From Salinarchaeum sp. IM2453 (GTDB lineage Archaea > Halobacteriota > Halobacteria > Halobacteriales > Salinarchaeaceae): 64,000 nucleotides of DNA. Below are positions 14,271 through 57,211 of the stretch, piece by piece. The notes beneath the pieces were generated by a model. That model searched no databases, was not told the origin of the DNA, and saw only the letters and a program-made list of their open reading frames with translations. The DNA lies in assembly GCF_019693215.1 (NCBI RefSeq), contig NZ_CP081183.1:2049226-2113225 (forward strand), given 5' to 3'. The translations under genes and the position numbers were made by a program. Numbering within the stretch: the first letter of the stretch is position 1; each line of letters opens with the position of its first letter.

Positions 14271-14738
14271 CACTTCTATACCAGTTGAGAACCCGTTTAG
14301 CAATCTCATCTGGAGTCAACTGCCCCACGCCCGGTGGCACAGGGATTATTAGTGATCTTGGACTCTTACAGCGATGGCAAGGCGAACTCCCACCCGCTTT
14401 AGCCGTGAAGCCGACAACTGGGAATCTCTCCACGGACGTAACCACGGCTGGATATTCAACGTCAAAAATCAAAGTTATGCAAGTAAAATACCACGCATAA
14501 TTGCCGACATAAAACAACGGTACCTCCGAATCACCGAAGCAGAACCACGTTCCAACCGGCGGATAGGAGGAACGGCTTCAGTGTGGCCCTTGCCTCGCTG
14601 TCAGCGTAAACATTTTTGTTTCTACCGAAAATGAGAATGGATTGCTCAGTCAGCTACTAACTCGAAGATCACTTCAGCCGACAGATGTGATCGACAAAGA
14701 AATAGACAGAGTGCCTCGAGGCTTGATCCCAAGGTACT
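14271..14738. other. 468-bp gene-free stretch with element relics
   Basis: The stretch contains a left-end hairpin copy (14366-14435) similar to the one at 41027-41102. Then comes a GGATAGGAGGAACGGC segment at about 14560-14580 that matches GGATAGGAGTAACGGC near 41281, and finally a degenerate type-B end at 14710-14742. It looks like a decayed, internally deleted IS200/IS605-type element. No coding frame here is convincing. Confidence 0.6.
14366..14435 (+). repeat. Left-end hairpin of an IS608-like element
   Basis: It begins TTACAGCGATGGCAAGGCGA, has a CCCACCCGCTTTAGCCGTG stem-loop, then the tail CCGACAACTGGGAATCTC. The copy at 41027 has the same order and the same CAACTGGGAATCT tail. TTAC immediately before AGCG fits the classical IS608 target, where insertion occurs 3' of TTAC. 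No matching TCAA right end was found downstream. Confidence 0.6.
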
Positions 14739-18392: not shown

Positions 18393-19202
18393 TCATCGTT
18401 TCGCAGTGAGTGACAACGAACAGCATCGAGACAGGTGGGTCTGACGACCGATCGCCTGATCCTGTTGAGTATCGGTCGCGGACTGAACGCCAGACATCCC
18501 GGCAGTTTGTGACTCTGCGGGGGCAGCAGAACGGGCACCCTCTGAAGGTGATGAGAAGCTGGCGTGGTTCTCCGCCGAGCTATACTCAGCAGGGTTCGCC
18601 TCCTCCATCTTGCTTTTTGAGAGATATTTCCGCCCGACGTTGACCGCTCCAACCACATCACGGTCGCATTCATACCCGCAGTGCGGACAGTGGAAATACC
18701 CACCGTGACGACACTCCGTGTGGTCGTTCGGTTCGTTCACCGTCTCTCCACGTTCACCGCATCGGGGACAACTCCGACTTGTTCCCCACGGATTCACCGT
18801 CGTCACGTCGATCCCAAATAACCCGGCCTTGTACTCGACGTGATCAAGCAGTTCACCCCGTGCCCACGAACTGATCAACCATCCCACCGTACCGCTTGCA
18901 TCGGACGACTCTATCTGCCCAAGAGACTCAAACACGGTGGTTTCACAGTCGTTCTCAACAGCCAGCCACATCAGTTGGCTCGCCACGTCGTGTTGGATTT
19001 GCTCGCGTAGGCGACGTTCCTTCCGGCGCATCTGGCGATACTCACTGAGTAAGTGGTCAAACCGTTCCGTGTGTACTTTCTCCTGTCGCCGGAGTTCTGC
19101 CGGCCGGTCGTTGATGCCTTCGGCGTCGGCTTTTACCCGGAACAGTTTGTCTTTCGCTGGATGGTCGATGAACTTGGACGGCGCAACCTGCTCGTGTGTC
19201 AC
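18393..19202 (-). pseudogene. TnpB (IS1341-type) fragment, N-terminal half missing
   Basis: 269 residues from a GTG at 19202; the frame reaches back only about 15 codons to a TAG. It keeps the RuvC-II glutamate (VFESLG), the four-Cys zinc finger (CPRCGERGE...CRHGGYFHCPHC) and the final acidic residue in CDRDVVGAVNVGRKY. The N-terminal WED/REC part and the RuvC-I aspartate are lost. Full TnpB proteins in haloarchaea run to about 400 residues. A Ser/Ala-rich tail follows the zinc finger. It cannot be an active nuclease. A strong stem, CCGGACA/TGTCCGG, lies just downstream at about 18331-18350. Confidence 0.8.
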
Positions 19203-20739: not shown

Positions 20740-20787
20740 TTGTCCTCCTCCCCCAGCTAAAGCTAGGGGCGCTCACCTCGCACTGCT
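20740..20787 (-). mobile_element. Minimal hairpin element, 48 bp, TTAC-flanked
   Basis: On the minus strand the flank TTAC (20791-20788) precedes AGCAGTGCGAGG. Then comes a stem CCCCTAGCTTTAGCTGGGGG, and the element ends GGAGGACAA, a one-base variant of TCAA. The layout equals the 50-bp copy at 32556-32605. It looks like a left end fused directly to a right end, with no body. It lies between azlD and the aminotransferase gene. Confidence 0.55.
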
Positions 20788-20921
20788 GTAAGCTTCGAAG
20801 CACTCTTCCTGTTTTCTCTGGATATCCCTGGTGCCAAGCTGTTTTCTGTAAATACTTTTGATACTCTTTCCGGTACTGTGACTGATAAGTGCCAAGAAAT
20901 AGCAAGTATATAGCGTGGAAT

Positions 20922-30849: not shown

Positions 30850-31119
30850 ATGTCAATGCAATGGCGACTGTTTGCTGATCTCCGTGAACGGGCAGGAACA
30901 GACACCGTAGAGGTCCAGACAAATGTAATGACTGTTCAGGCAGCACTAGACGAATTACTGAGTCAGCACGAAGAATTAGAGACTCGTGTCCTTGATGAAG
31001 ATGGCAACGTTCAAGATCACATTAACATTCTTGTAAATGGTGAAAGTATCTCAGATCTTGATGCTCAAATTAGCGCGGATGATGAGCTGGCCCTTTTTCC
31101 ACCGGTAAGTGGTGGTTAG
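30850..31119 (+). CDS. samp1: Ubiquitin-like small archaeal modifier protein SAMP1 / MoaD family
   Basis: 89 residues (or 87 from the ATG at 30856). MQWRLFADLRERAGTDTVEV at the start and DDELALFPPVSGG at the end match Haloferax SAMP1 closely, from memory. The C-terminal GG is adenylated by the E1-like UbaA and then conjugated to lysines or thiolated for molybdopterin synthesis. No uba or moaE gene is adjacent. The 3' end overlaps the convergent gatD gene by 4 nt. Confidence 0.92.
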   Translation: MSMQWRLFADLRERAGTDTVEVQTNVMTVQAALDELLSQHEELETRVLDEDGNVQDHINILVNGESISDLDAQISADDELALFPPVSGG

Positions 31120-32408
31120 GTCCACGGAACAGACTGCTCAGTTATTTCTCCGGCAAGTGATTTTTGCATTGTTCTCTGTGGATCGTCTTTATTCGATAGT
31201 ACCCACATCAATTTGACCAGTGCTGTTTCTGGAAGTGTATCTTCTGCCTCAACTACGCCTGCATCAAGTAAATCTCGACCAGTATCGTACACGCGGTCGC
31301 AGACCCGACCTTCAATACACTGACTGGTCATTACGACAACCGTGCCGCTGTCAACCAGTTCCTCTACTGCCGGAATTAAATCAGTGCTTATGTGTCCAAG
31401 TCCTGTGCCTTCAATGATAACTCCTTCAGTATCTGCCAACGATCTGATTCGCTCTTCATCCATCCCTGGCGTGAATTTAATTAAGTCAACATTGGATTCT
31501 ATGTCTGGCTGAATATCCGGGGTCACCTCTCCGCGGCTCGTGTACTCCCGATCAAACGAGAGATGTGAATCAATTGTCGTGTTGTCTTCTACGTCTGTAA
31601 TATATTCTTGATTTGCAACACTGTAATCAACCGTTCCTAGTGGTTTATTCCCGACTGTTTCAAAGGCATCGCGACGGGATGTATGACTCTTCCGTGCCCG
31701 TGTCCCCCGATGTAATGCACATTTTGTATCAGAGCTTTCCTTGTGCATACAGATCATGACTTCAGCACAGTCTGACTTTGCCGCTTCCACAGCACAAACT
31801 GCGTTCATAACGTTATCAGATGACGGGCGATCTGCAGATCGTTGACTTCCAGTAAATACAATCGGAACTGGAGTGTCAATCATAAATCCCACAGCTGCTG
31901 CACTGTACTGCATTGTGTCCGTTCCGTGCATCACAACAACGCCGTCTGCTCCGGATTCAATCTCTTTGTAAATTGCTTCCGCAAGCTCCTGCCAGACATC
32001 CGGAGTCATGTTTTCTGAGAGGATATTTGTCACAACTTTTCCTCTGTAGTTTGCACGTCCTGCTAAGTCCGGGACTGCCCGAAGCACATCTTCGGCATCG
32101 AATTGAGCCGTAACTGCCCCTGTCCGATAATCAACAGTTGATGCAATTGTACCCCCTGTTGAAATAAGTGAAATTGTTGGTAGTGACTCATCAGCTGTAA
32201 TCTCGGATGTCCCTTCTCCGGCACCGGCATCAGAAAAGTCATGTACGGCTTTTTCAAGTACCGAAACCGATGCCTCTGCTCGATCAATACCGACGTTGTA
32301 TCCGTCATCTAGCTTGAGAACAAGCCGATCAGATGCGCTTGATGGTAACACCGTCCCCTCGTACTCAACATCCGCTTGCTCAACGCGGATACGGTCTCCT
32401 GGTTGCAT
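31116..32408 (-). CDS. gatD: Glutamyl-tRNA(Gln) amidotransferase subunit D
   Basis: 430 residues. An N-terminal beta domain (MQPGDRIRVEQADVEYEGTVLP) is followed by an asparaginase-like domain with LISTGGTIAST, MHGTDTMQYSAAAVGFM and GSQRSADRPSSDN. This is GatD, which releases ammonia from glutamine for the archaeal GatDE route to Gln-tRNA. GatE is not in the window; in haloarchaea the two genes are often apart. It is convergent with samp1, with a 4-nt overlap at the stops. Confidence 0.94.
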   Translation of the reverse strand: MQPGDRIRVEQADVEYEGTVLPSSASDRLVLKLDDGYNVGIDRAEASVSVLEKAVHDFSDAGAGEGTSEITADESLPTISLISTGGTIASTVDYRTGAVTAQFDAEDVLRAVPDLAGRANYRGKVVTNILSENMTPDVWQELAEAIYKEIESGADGVVVMHGTDTMQYSAAAVGFMIDTPVPIVFTGSQRSADRPSSDNVMNAVCAVEAAKSDCAEVMICMHKESSDTKCALHRGTRARKSHTSRRDAFETVGNKPLGTVDYSVANQEYITDVEDNTTIDSHLSFDREYTSRGEVTPDIQPDIESNVDLIKFTPGMDEERIRSLADTEGVIIEGTGLGHISTDLIPAVEELVDSGTVVVMTSQCIEGRVCDRVYDTGRDLLDAGVVEAEDTLPETALVKLMWVLSNKDDPQRTMQKSLAGEITEQSVPWT

Positions 32409-32849
32409 ATCAGTATTCTTGATGCTGGCATGACTTGAACGGTTCCCATTCGGTCACAGAATACAAGTAGACGCCACTAGGCTCAGACGATAATCGAGGC
32501 TGATTCCTGCCTCACTGTGTGCAGGTCCATCAGTCGTCCGGCCGGAAGAGAGACATTGATCCCCTCCACACGGCTAAAGCCGGGGGATTTCGCCTCGATG
32601 CCGCTGTAAATATACTCTTAAGCCAGGATTAAGGACACTAAGCTGGCTGAACCCACCAGTCCACCCAGTTGAGTCAGAGTTCGAGCTCACTGACAGGCTT
32701 CGCGTCACCGTCCACTGGGCAGCTGACTACTTATCTGAGATGTGTTTCGTTGGAAGCCGCTACTGACTACTGAAAGCAACATAGTATGTAACTGACGGTT
32801 CCGTCCCTTTCAGGAACGGGAGTATTGGCATCTCGGTTTTACCATTTAG
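32409..32849. other. 441-bp gene-free stretch upstream of gatD with a mini-element and a short hairpin
   Basis: It holds the 50-bp hairpin element (32556-32605) and a CCGTCCC/GGAACGG-type stem near 32798-32821. Otherwise I see no gene. The gatD promoter should lie just after 32408. No coding-like frame of haloarchaeal composition is present. Confidence 0.5.
32556..32605 (-). mobile_element. Minimal hairpin element, 50 bp, TTAC/TCAA-bounded
   Basis: On the minus strand TTAC (32609-32606) is followed by AGCGGCATCGAGGCGAAATC, a CCCCCGGCTTTAGCCGTGTGG hairpin, and a terminal GGGGATCAA. The start matches the left end of the 1-kb element at 48743-49753, and the end matches its right end. It therefore looks like left and right ends joined without a body. 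TTAC target and TCAA right cut are the sites known for IS608. Confidence 0.6.
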
Positions 32850-38807: not shown

Positions 38808-38838
38808 TCTTCCCCTGGCTTTATCCGTGGAAGGTCAA
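38808..38838 (+). repeat. Decayed element right end ending in TCAA
   Basis: TCTTCCCCTGGCTTTATCCG then TGGAAGGTCAA has the same order as the mini-elements (a CCCC..GGCTTTA..CCG loop, then AGGTCAA). It lies between the glutaredoxin and thioesterase genes. The left half with TTAC is gone. Confidence 0.4.
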
Positions 38839-40943: not shown

Positions 40944-41429
40944 GTTTCGACACTGCATGATTGCACTGAGACCAGAAGCAGGAGGATACATCCCATCAAC
41001 AATGCGATGAAAACAACCTATAGGCCTTACAGCGTTAGCAAGGCGAAAGCCCACCCGTTTACGGGTGTGGATAAAGCCAACAACTGGGAATCTATCCACG
41101 GGACTGAGCTATCCCGGTGTTTTATCAGCAATCAGAACGTAGGCATGACCACGCCGAGGCGGTTTCGCCGCCCTATTAAACGGATAATATCGGGATTCGG
41201 ACCACACCACGTCTGAAGGAATCCCCTTCAGGCCGCTGGCTGTGGATTCCGGACACACGGTAACTCTGAATCCCATGCCGGGATAGGAGTAACGGCGGCT
41301 TGGCCCCGCCAGCGGTCTGGTCATGCCGACTGGACTGCAAACCTGAAACTCCCAACCAAGCGGGTGCGGTGCCGTGGGAATCCCACCCCGTTCACGGGTG
41401 GGAGGAGGTCAATAATGGCCCATGGAAGC
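40944..41429. other. 486-bp gene-free stretch containing an internally deleted IS608-like element
   Basis: Most of it is the 382-bp element 41031-41412. The interval before it is short and unremarkable. Frames in this stretch are rich in Pro, Cys and Arg and unlike the neighbouring coding DNA, so I call no gene. Confidence 0.6.
41031..41412 (+). mobile_element. Non-autonomous IS608-like element (MITE-like), 382 bp
   Basis: It is preceded by TTAC (41027-41030) and starts AGCGTTAGCAAGGCGAAAGC with a CCCACCCGTTTACGGGTGTGG hairpin. It ends with a second hairpin (about 41376-41402) and GGAGGAGGTCAA. The inside lacks any tnpA or tnpB but shares the CAACTGGGAATCT and GGATAGGAGNAACGGC segments with the relic at 14366-14590. 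This is the order expected for an IS200/IS605 derivative deleted for its genes. Confidence 0.65.
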
Positions 41430-48742: not shown

Positions 48743-49753
48743 TTGACCTCCCCACACGGCTGAAGCTGTGGGTTTCCTCCCTGGGTATTCCCGGTTGGAT
48801 TACCCCGGCTGTGAATTTGCGGGTTCGCTGACGCTGGGTTGGTCGGGCGGACGCAACTGTTTCCCAAAATCGACGGGTGTCCAGCTGTGTCCATTCCACC
48901 CCCAGTATGCCCCTTCGGTGGGTGCGCTCCTGTCGCGCTCAGCAGACAGGGCAGCGGGCCGGGCCATCGGCCCTCCTTCAGACTGCAAGATGTTCCACGT
49001 CCCTGCCACGTCGCTGTGTGCATCCAACCGACAATCATGACACCGGAATGAATCGCCATTGCGAGCCACCTCACTACTTCCGCACTCGGGACACTCGCTA
49101 CTCGAATCGGCTTCACTCACTTCCTGGAACACAATCCCAACATCACTGAGTGTCAGATCGATCCGAGCCGAGAGTTGCCGATACGACCAAAAAGCGTGAT
49201 TTTTCTGGTTTACCGCAGCACTCCAATGCGTGTCCAGCACATCGGTCAAATCACCAACGTACACCGCGTCAACATTCCGTTCGAGTAGCCAGTCAGCAAT
49301 GTGGTTCACCGCCGAATTTCGACTGTGGTCGCACTTTCGGGTGCGAGTGTCATACAGTCGTTGAATCAGGCGACTTGTGGATTCTTTGCTTAGAAGCTCC
49401 GATTGGAGTCCTGCGATTCGTCCCGAATAGCTCTGAAGCCGCTCAAATTCCGGGCAGGCATGGGACACAGCAGCATTACCGTCTTCTGTGACAACAAACA
49501 ACGTACTGTTCGCACCTACGTCGATGGCGGCTGTCTGCGCCGTGTCCCCGGTGTCGAGTGTGTGAGTGAAGGCATCCTCTCGCTGTTCACGGATCTTGTC
49601 TGGTTGAATGGGGACAGGATGCTTGATACGAAGCTGGGCAGCGTGTTCGTCATAGATGAGTTCCAAGCGCCTATCGTCACCGTCTCATTGTGAATTCTTA
49701 CGGACTTTAACATCCACGCCCCTAAAGGAATGGGCTTTCCCCTCAATACCGCT
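48743..49753 (-). mobile_element. IS608/IS1341-like element with recognisable ends, 1011 bp
   Basis: On the minus strand the flank TTAC (49757-49754) precedes AGCGGTATTGAGGGGAAAGC and a left hairpin (CCCATTCCTTTAGGGGCGTGG). The right end has the hairpin CCCACAGCTTCAGCCGTGTGGG and ends GGAGGTCAA at 48743. The body carries a tnpB lacking its N-terminal part and no tnpA. Ends therefore look intact for trans-mobilisation, while the internal gene is deleted. Confidence 0.7.
48800..49666 (-). pseudogene. TnpB (IS1341-type), N-terminally truncated and lacking the RuvC-II glutamate
   Basis: 288 residues from a TTG; no in-frame start of normal length exists, because a TGA stands 21 nt upstream. It keeps the RuvC-I Asp (AAIDVGANST), the zinc finger CPECGSSEVARNGDSFRCHDC and the RuvC-III Asp (SDVAGTWNIL). 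Where TnpB usually reads EDL, it reads VYVGDLTDVLDTHW, so the RuvC-II glutamate position seems to be Gly. The roughly 100-150 N-terminal residues (WED/REC) are missing. A Pro/Ser-rich tail extends past the zinc finger. A working RNA-guided nuclease is unlikely. Confidence 0.75.
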
Positions 49754-50251
49754 GTAAGAAGCAGCTAAAACACTGTGCAACCATTATTCAGCTATAATAT
49801 AAAGGTGGCGCGTGGCATATAGGTTGGGACCCACTCCACGCGCCATTTTGGTGTAACATCCCCTGACTTATTTTTGTTGTGATTATCTGAGTTAATTTCT
49901 GATACTTTCACATTCAAGAGTACCTTGTGAGAGTAGCCATAGGTACCGAGGAGCGATATCATCGCGAGACCATCAGGAAGACTGTTTATACTATGTGAAG
50001 TCTATCCCCAGATTCTGCAGGCAAAGTACCCGAGACGTGACAATCACCAGTTCTAACAGGATGCTCAAACTAAACGTAATTATCTTTTCAGATACCTATA
50101 ATCTGCATAAAATTGTTATCCGTTGATTATATACTATAAGATGACAAATGTTTAAGTTAGTATTCGCTTAATTCGCTGCTGTCGGAAATATATTCATAGA
50201 GCATAAACTATCAAATACTCTGCCAATGAACTACCAGGGGGGTTGGGACCC
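49754..50251. other. 498-bp region upstream of trmB with a strong hairpin
   Basis: Contains the 10-bp-arm hairpin 49806-49845, a TATA-like CTATAATATAAA just before it, and a long AT-rich stretch to the trmB start. No gene is seen. The 12-mer GGTTGGGACCCA occurs in the hairpin loop and again at 50241-50252, ending on the trmB ATG. Confidence 0.5.
49806..49845. promoter_or_regulatory. Hairpin TGGCGCGTGG / CCACGCGCCA with nested TGGGACCCA
   Basis: The arms 49806-49815 and 49836-49845 pair perfectly over 10 bp. The 20-nt loop contains GGTTGGGACCCA, itself with a TGGG-A-CCCA palindrome. A TATA-like box lies about 10 nt before the first arm. It could be an operator, an RNA structure or a remnant of an element end. 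Role unknown. Confidence 0.5.
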
Positions 50252-55830: not shown

Positions 55831-57165
55831 ATGAAGACGAGAAGTGAGGTGCCGCATCTGATGGAGCAGACGGTAACAACGGTTGCCGTGGAAGTAGATC
55901 CCGCAGACACGGTGAATATCTACCAGTGGCTGTCTCAGCAGACAGCACCTCGGATTTTTTGGCAGGATCGTAACGATATGACTTTTGCCGGGGCTGGAGC
56001 GGCCGCAGTCATACAAGCAACTCACGAAGAAAGTCGCTTTGATGCAATTCATACAGCCGCCGAACAGCTATTTTCAAATATTACGCATATTGGACCAGAA
56101 ATCACTCGGCCGCGCGTCTTCGGTGGATTCTCATTTGATAGCAAACACGTTGCAAAGGACCACTGGAGTGACTTCCCAGCAGGTTACTTTGTCCTACCGG
56201 AACAGATGCTGATTCGAAATGGGGAGCATCTGTATCTTGTTAAGACTGTAGTTGACACAGAGCCTCATGACCCATCACAGCTGGAAGTAGAACTCAAGGC
56301 TGCAGCTACACAACTGCCTGAAAGCTATTACGGCGCTGAACAACCACCAGCGATCGAGACAACAACAATCATCCCAAATAAAGAAGAGTGGATACAGATT
56401 GTCACTGACGCCGTCTCGACTATTGATGAGACACAGTTGCAGAAAATTGTTGTAGCGACTGCTATGGATGTCTCACTCAACAATCGATTAGATATACCGA
56501 CGATTCTCAGACAATTTAGCCTAGAGTACCCGAAGTGCTATCACTTTCTTATCCAGCCTTCAGCGAAAAATGCGTTTTTTGGCCCGCCACCAGAACGGCT
56601 CCTTGCAGTTGATGACATGGATATTGCCACGGAAGCACTCGCTGGTTCTGCTCCCAGAGGAGATACTGAAAAACTGGATCAACAGTATGCCGATTCACTG
56701 CTATCCTCTGAGAAAACCCGTCATGAGCAACAACTAGTGACCGATACAATCACCTCTGCACTCCAATCGTTTGGATCAGTAACAACAGAAGATCGTTCTG
56801 TGAAGAAATTTAATAATATTCAGCATCTTCACACACCTATCTCAGCAAATGCTACATCAAAGACACATATTCTCGATATTCTTAGCATGCTACATCCATC
56901 ACCCGCTGTAGGTGGACTACCAAAGGAATTAGCATTGCGAACAATCCAAGAGCTTGAGCCGTTTCAGCGCGGATGGTATGCTTCGCCTGTTGGCTGGTTT
57001 GATGCTGATGGATATGGAGAATTTGCAGTTGGAATTCGATCAGGAGTCAATACAAACTCCAAATTACGGCTTTTTGCTGGAAACGGGATTGTATCGGACA
57101 GTGTTCCTGAAGAAGAATGGGAAGAAGTGAATCTAAAATATGATCCAGTGCTGACAAACTTATAA
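55831..57165 (+). CDS. menF: Isochorismate synthase
   Basis: 444 residues (ATG 55831; ATG 55861 is an alternative). The C-terminal chorismate-binding domain has IVVATAMDV, YHFLIQPSAKNAFFGPPPERLLAV, ALAGSAPRGDTEKLDQQYADSLLSSEKTRHE (Lys/Glu catalytic region) and LHTPISANA...PSPAVGGLPKELAL. It makes isochorismate, the first step to menaquinone. A short element relic separates it from menD, but both run in the same direction. Confidence 0.94.
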   Translation: MKTRSEVPHLMEQTVTTVAVEVDPADTVNIYQWLSQQTAPRIFWQDRNDMTFAGAGAAAVIQATHEESRFDAIHTAAEQLFSNITHIGPEITRPRVFGGFSFDSKHVAKDHWSDFPAGYFVLPEQMLIRNGEHLYLVKTVVDTEPHDPSQLEVELKAAATQLPESYYGAEQPPAIETTTIIPNKEEWIQIVTDAVSTIDETQLQKIVVATAMDVSLNNRLDIPTILRQFSLEYPKCYHFLIQPSAKNAFFGPPPERLLAVDDMDIATEALAGSAPRGDTEKLDQQYADSLLSSEKTRHEQQLVTDTITSALQSFGSVTTEDRSVKKFNNIQHLHTPISANATSKTHILDILSMLHPSPAVGGLPKELALRTIQELEPFQRGWYASPVGWFDADGYGEFAVGIRSGVNTNSKLRLFAGNGIVSDSVPEEEWEEVNLKYDPVLTNL

Positions 57166-57211
57166 ATTGCGAGGCGAAATTCCCACTCCTTTAGGAGTGA
57201 GAGGAGCTCAA
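57166..57211 (+). repeat. Hairpin element relic between menF and menD, ending in TCAA
   Basis: GCGAGGCGAAATTCCCACTC, loop CTTTAGGAGTGAGAGGAGC, then TCAA. The stem (CCCACTCC/GGAGTGAG) and TCAA end match the right ends of the larger elements. The TTAC flank is not clean on the left. It sits directly after the menF stop. Confidence 0.5.

Follow-up and report, generated by a model that had tools for sequence, protein, structure and literature searches.

Short IS605-type hairpin units in a Salinarchaeum chromosome are probably terminal-only PATEs

Introduction

Terminal-only PATEs have been described in Haloquadratum (Dyall-Smith 2011, PMC3119063). In that genus ISHwa23, an element of 1500 bp with a 19-bp repeat, is shortened to 52 bp by deletion of its core, and HqIRS46, with a 22-bp repeat, also has a 52-bp form; four cases are known in which HqIRS46 is full in one strain and 52 bp long in the other, and repeat-mediated core deletion after insertion is documented for these short forms (PMC3119063). 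All six strain-specific ISHwa23 insertions of Haloquadratum HBSQ001 are of the 52-bp form (PMC3119063). The signals by which such ends can be read are those of IS608, in which the left cleavage site CL (TTAC) goes with the left guide GL (AAAG) and the right guide GR (GAAT) with the right cleavage site CR (TCAA) (PMC5934647). Structurally, both T of TTAC are paired in IS608 with the first two bases of the guide, and these guide bases also form triplets with the A and T that lie just 3' of the hairpin.

Bacterial REPs, which are mobilised by RAYT (TnpA-REP) transposases, are short single hairpins that are dispersed in intergenic DNA and linked to Y1 enzymes. Their 5' tetranucleotide is GTAG or GGAG, and they lack a pair of transposon ends.

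Results

A fused pair of ends at 32556-32609

The window, i.e. the whole stretch of 64,000 nucleotides that was analysed, has a GC content of 46% and belongs to a chromosome of 2.66 Mb. A preliminary description had placed a hairpin element at 32556-32605; the unit is real, but that span omits the TTAC, and the true extent is 32556-32609 on the minus strand (54 bp including TTAC), reading TTAC and then AGCGGCATCGAGGCGAAATCCCCCGGCTTTAGCCGTGTGGAGGGGATCAA. It lies about 150 bp upstream of the ORF at 31116-32408 (minus strand). We call such units, with a left and a right end within 50-57 bp, solos. The features of the window are:

32556..32609, minus strand: solo, probably a terminal-only IS605/PATE element, intergenic
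32606-32609 and 32556-32559, minus strand: TTAC and TCAA of this solo; between them a left spacer, a guide region GAAAT, a hairpin round CGGC-TTTA-GCCG and a right tail that runs to TCAA
20740..20791, minus strand: solo of 52 bp, TTAC ... ACAA (right cleavage site decayed), 57.6 bits, in the training set
57160..57211, plus strand: decayed solo of the TTATAGAAATTGCGAGG subfamily with a TCAA end, 29 bits, E 8e-6
38808..38838, plus strand: possible decayed right-end remnant, no model match at E<=0.1
41027..41412, plus strand: full-length non-coding PATE of 386 bp
48743..49757, minus strand: TnpB-carrying IS605-type element of 1015 bp with left end, right end (TCAA) and PF07282
48800-49666, minus strand: tnpB ORF (PF07282) inside that element
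18393..19202, minus strand: another tnpB ORF (269 aa), the second in the window, TnpB-domain match
14366..14417, plus strand: left end of a longer element, AAGCCGACAACTGGG after the hairpin, model match

In a search of the whole host genome with a covariance model built from 13 copies, itself and the solo at 20740-20791 among them, the solo at 32556-32609 scores 75 bits (E 4e-16). This match is far above chance, and a chance origin was rejected. The unit consists of a left end of the IS608 type and a right end, which are fused and have one hairpin in common. The preliminary description had proposed such a joining, and full-length elements of the host bear it out: they hold the two ends apart, and joining these at the shared hairpin yields the solo type. 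The PATE at 41027-41412 may serve as an example of separate ends, with TTAC, AAAG and the hairpin CCCGTTTACGGG on the left and GAAT, the hairpin CCCGTTCACGGG and TCAA on the right. The GAAAT that precedes the hairpin of the solo fits neither the left nor the right guide fully. The solo belongs to an eight-copy GTATCGAGG subfamily. Among the model matches no full-length parent was found that agrees with this subfamily in left end and loop, which counts against an origin by core deletion.

A second copy had been proposed at 20740 with an ACAA end; it is real and spans 20740-20791 on the minus strand, its 57.6 bits being those of a training-set member. The supposed decayed forms fared unequally, since the one now delimited to 57160-57211 is matched by the model and its subfamily has further copies in the host genome, whereas that at 38808-38838 is not matched.

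Abundance and divergence of solos in the host genome

Searching the host genome with 80 bp round the solo at 32556-32609 returned 31 matches. The covariance model gave at least 142 at E<=1 and at least 83 at E<=1e-5; these counts are lower bounds because about 150 of 1028 candidates were scored. The stretches read round the model matches, about 12% of the host genome, contain at least about 53 solos in the chromosome and about 42 left ends of longer elements, the two classes being set by pattern and by eye with ten doubtful cases excluded. Where the right end of a longer element was found, it lay 0.2-0.6 kb off in non-coding PATEs or 1-1.8 kb off in TnpB elements. Units of this kind had been held to be rare, a view that the genome-wide search contradicts. 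Since 40 other haloarchaeal genomes have 0 to 6 model matches each at E<=1e-5, versus 83 in the host, the solo/PATE family is expanded in the host species. Well-kept 51-53-bp solos with good hairpins occur in many other haloarchaeal genera (L306 of G002, L305 of G006, L292 of G008, and L296, L297, L299, L302 and L304); the copies of the window genome are worn.

TTAC is present in 32 of the 53 solos and TCAA in 40. A reading as REP sequences of the RAYT (TnpA-REP) type was rejected: most copies have TTAC at the 5' end and no tetranucleotide of the GTAG type, and solos, in contrast to REPs, hold both IS605 cleavage sites. A broader reading takes the solos for REP-like or regulatory hairpins (terminators, mRNA stabilisers) that are kept by selection and are no transposon remnants. 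In its favour, about 50 copies are found in one genome and the placement is strongly intergenic, only 1 of 51 solos lying inside an ORF of >=150 aa as compared to 68% of control positions. The survival of insertions predicts the same placement equally well, and we take the intergenic position to show where insertions survive; it has no bearing on mobility. Since, moreover, the hairpins are often imperfect and diverged, both transposon ends can be recognised with their cleavage sites and correspond to those of full elements, Rfam returned no match in the window, and an exactly predicted product (see below) is at hand, we consider a REP-like or regulatory origin highly improbable.

The host solos differ by about 2-20% even between closest pairs. 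Three 500-bp PATEs of the host have a mean column identity of 97%. A different type of full PATE (499 bp) is present at four sites that are unrelated to each other, with 99.4-99.6% identity between the copies, which indicates that full elements moved recently and that the diverged solos are mostly relics beside younger full copies. The left halves of solos and the left ends of full elements are not separated from each other (nearest-neighbour fraction 0.60, shuffled mean 0.55), as is expected if solos form repeatedly.

Some left-end hairpins have themselves received insertions. An element with Tn5-like ends (CTGTCTCTT...AAGAGACAG) lies inside left-end hairpins at G000:C1:2225398 (L266), 402540, 516546 and 1740539 and occurs also in G137, G300 and G066; the insert at 2225398 measures about 250 bp and has a copy of the hairpin stretch GGCTTTAGCC on either side. 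In this the inserts recall the MITEs and SMR-A elements of Haloquadratum, whose targets are PATEs. Another insert, the double hairpin CCTCAGAACGCTTCGCGTTCTGATGGGCTGCACAAGACCTTCGGTCTTGTGAAC of about 57 bp, occupies the same position in two left-end hairpins (G000:C1:298438 and 2255251).

TTAC and TCAA mark insertion points

It had been suggested that TTAC and TCAA are the borders of insertion, and two observations confirm this. A 500-bp PATE at 1794394-1794894 lies inside a solo, the remainder of which resumes directly past the TCAA of the PATE; the first bases of the solo are missing after this TCAA, and its TTAC is the left flank of the PATE. In addition, ten identical 52-bp units with unrelated flanks lose their identity exactly at TTAC and at TCAA. 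By reading, the flanks of solos and full copies show no target duplication; as in terminal-only PATEs, the units have no terminal inverted repeat. Empty sites were searched for in several collections: within the fetched DNA, the two flanks of a solo, when joined, had no match other than themselves, the flanks in congeners of three other solo-bearing genomes were too diverged for comparison, and an empty allele of three of the identical 52-mers was not found in plasmid records. Viral contigs gave no exact matches, and phage records no match to the PATE.

A proposed core deletion predicts the solo

Support for an origin by loss of the core comes from repeats within the hairpins of full elements. 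The three 500-bp PATEs of the host carry CGGCTTTAGCCGTG at both ends; the direct repeat shared by the left and right hairpins of this PATE is 14 bp long, and deletion between its two copies is predicted to leave the 55-mer TTACAGCGGTAGCAAGGCGAAAGCCCATCGGCTTTAGCCGTGTGGAGGAGGTCAA, which is of the solo type: a left end up to the shared repeat, followed by the right end past the repeat. An intact TnpB element of 1500 bp in genome G059 (L375) has a 19-bp repeat in its hairpins, and its core deletion predicts TTACGGAGAATCGAGGAGAAAGCCTCGCGCTTCAGCGCGGGGAGGATGTCAA, which is letter-for-letter the observed 52-mer. This 52-mer occurs at ten sites in two families, three of them further sites of G059 and seven outside it (G319, G390, G360 and plasmids of Halorubrum ezzemoulense, Hrr. 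lacusprofundi, Halorubrum sp. PV6 and Halobacterium hubeiense). The comparison of full and solo forms was made between different sites, within and across genomes. Evidence against the reading comes from the CGCGC subfamily, for which the likeness between the two TnpB parents of the host and the solos is limited to a short stretch at the foot of the hairpin. Deletion at the longest repeat that these parents share would leave another loop, so that the true parent is absent among the elements read.

The solos are short non-coding units in which the two termini of a known PATE/IS605 element are combined, the core having probably been lost between near-terminal palindrome repeats (14 bp in the host's own PATE, 19 bp in L375), and the kind is already known as the terminal-only PATE. 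We regard it as probable, at roughly 0.8, that a solo is the core-deleted relic of an IS200/IS605-type element (TnpB transposon or non-coding PATE) with fused ends. The parent would insert 3' of a TTAC by the single-strand pathway of TnpA, and its core would later be deleted by slippage, or by recombination, involving the repeats of the two hairpins, so that 50-57 bp are left. The right guide would go with the core, in which case the solo could not cut its own right end and the copy at 32556-32609 would presumably be a relic rather than an active substrate.

Guides retained and lost

Most left ends consist of TTAC, about 14 nt, AAAG or AACG, a hairpin and ATGAAGCC. Nearly all right ends found in the fetched loci read GAAT, hairpin, about 10 nt and TCAA, in a count of forms found and not of forms missed, as the search pattern itself required GAAT and TCAA. 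The solos combine a left guide of the AAAG/AACG type, one hairpin, right-type bases 3' of it, and TCAA. The right guide GAAT was sought at their hairpin and is absent, so that the single hairpin is accompanied by a left-type guide only and the two ends do not each have a guide of their own (GL and GR). That the left guide is kept along with the right cleavage site, and the right guide lost, is what core deletion between direct repeats of the hairpins is expected to produce.

Supply of TnpA and TnpB

The host chromosome holds one match to a Y1 tnpA, in an assembly from which plasmids may be missing. This gene (G000:C1:1207721-1208119; L149:2722-3120) encodes a protein that resembles solved Y1 enzymes with IS200-type structures. 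Its frame ends 8 residues past the aligned tyrosine, and a T stands at the position of the IS608 metal ligand Q131; we infer from these features that the only tnpA of the host is probably impaired. The frame departs from its relatives right after the catalytic tyrosine, and the adjoining divergent tnpB is broken. The single tnpA stands against 51 TnpB-domain matches in the host genome. Most of these 51 lie in open frames, which are many RNA-guided nuclease genes for 2.66 Mb.

Discussion

Can a solo move by itself? The preliminary description had considered such units as perhaps the smallest substrates of a Y1 transposase. On such a view TnpA acting in trans would excise and reinsert the 52-55-bp unit. 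This agrees with the 52-bp copies that are 100% identical at ten unrelated sites in two families, one genome having three of them. It agrees also with the three copies of G100, which are identical, private to that genome and set in unrelated flanks, with another three identical copies in G075, and with the exclusively 52-bp form of the six HBSQ001 insertions mentioned above (PMC3119063). Yet core deletion of a parent with conserved ends yields exactly the same 52-mer, and repeated core deletion of such parents likewise predicts identical copies at unrelated sites. Without GAAT at the hairpin the right-cleavage rule of IS608 is unmet, and 3' of the hairpin there are bases of the right-end type in place of the AT by which IS608 supports its left guide. 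Most host solos have, furthermore, diverged from their closest relatives, their left halves do not stand apart from the left ends of full elements, and the only tnpA looks impaired. Given the absent right guide and the core deletion documented for the Haloquadratum 52-bp forms, we consider mobility of the solo the less likely reading and an improbable one. The three G100 solos (G100:C1:223549, 313201 and 423849) are identical 52-bp units with a sequence private to this genome, and their parent was not found in the stretches read. The search for it allowed 3 mismatches and a full left end there would show four; the statement that G100 has three solos and no parent was therefore dropped.

A variant assumes that the 52-bp solo is a natural minimal transposon, a single hairpin with a left guide, movable by TnpA and perhaps supplied with a right guide in trans by another element. 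We think this unlikely as well; if true, it would account for the identity of copies that lie in different families and at sites unrelated to each other. A linked speculation starts from the TTAC that a solo leaves behind, with transposon sequence next to it: a TnpB guided to the empty site could no longer recut there, and solos would then be the stable way of losing a TnpB element.

If solos are, as we favour, core-deleted relics, a large class of repeats of about 50 bp in a haloarchaeal genome is explained by the footprints that IS605/TnpB elements leave. The question of 2011 whether the 52-bp form can move is sharpened as well. The IS608 guide rule predicts that the left cut of a solo is possible and the right cut is not, and its application to sister strains would tell how genomes lose TnpB elements. 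New in the present contribution are a further, heavily loaded genome, the application of the IS608 guide rule to solos and the exact agreement of predicted and observed product across genera.

Comparison with known systems

The full elements resemble IS608 in TTAC, AAAG, GAAT, TCAA and a hairpin at each end, whereas a solo has one hairpin, a left-type guide only and no gene. A close likeness is that to the core-deleted forms of HqIRS46 and ISHwa23, which are fused termini of 52 bp with one palindrome that arose by deletion between near-terminal palindromes, as the host solos probably did. Haloquadratum walsbyi is also the same kind of host, with many TnpB elements and scarce intact tnpA. The present genome differs from Haloquadratum in its many diverged solos and its several hairpin subfamilies.
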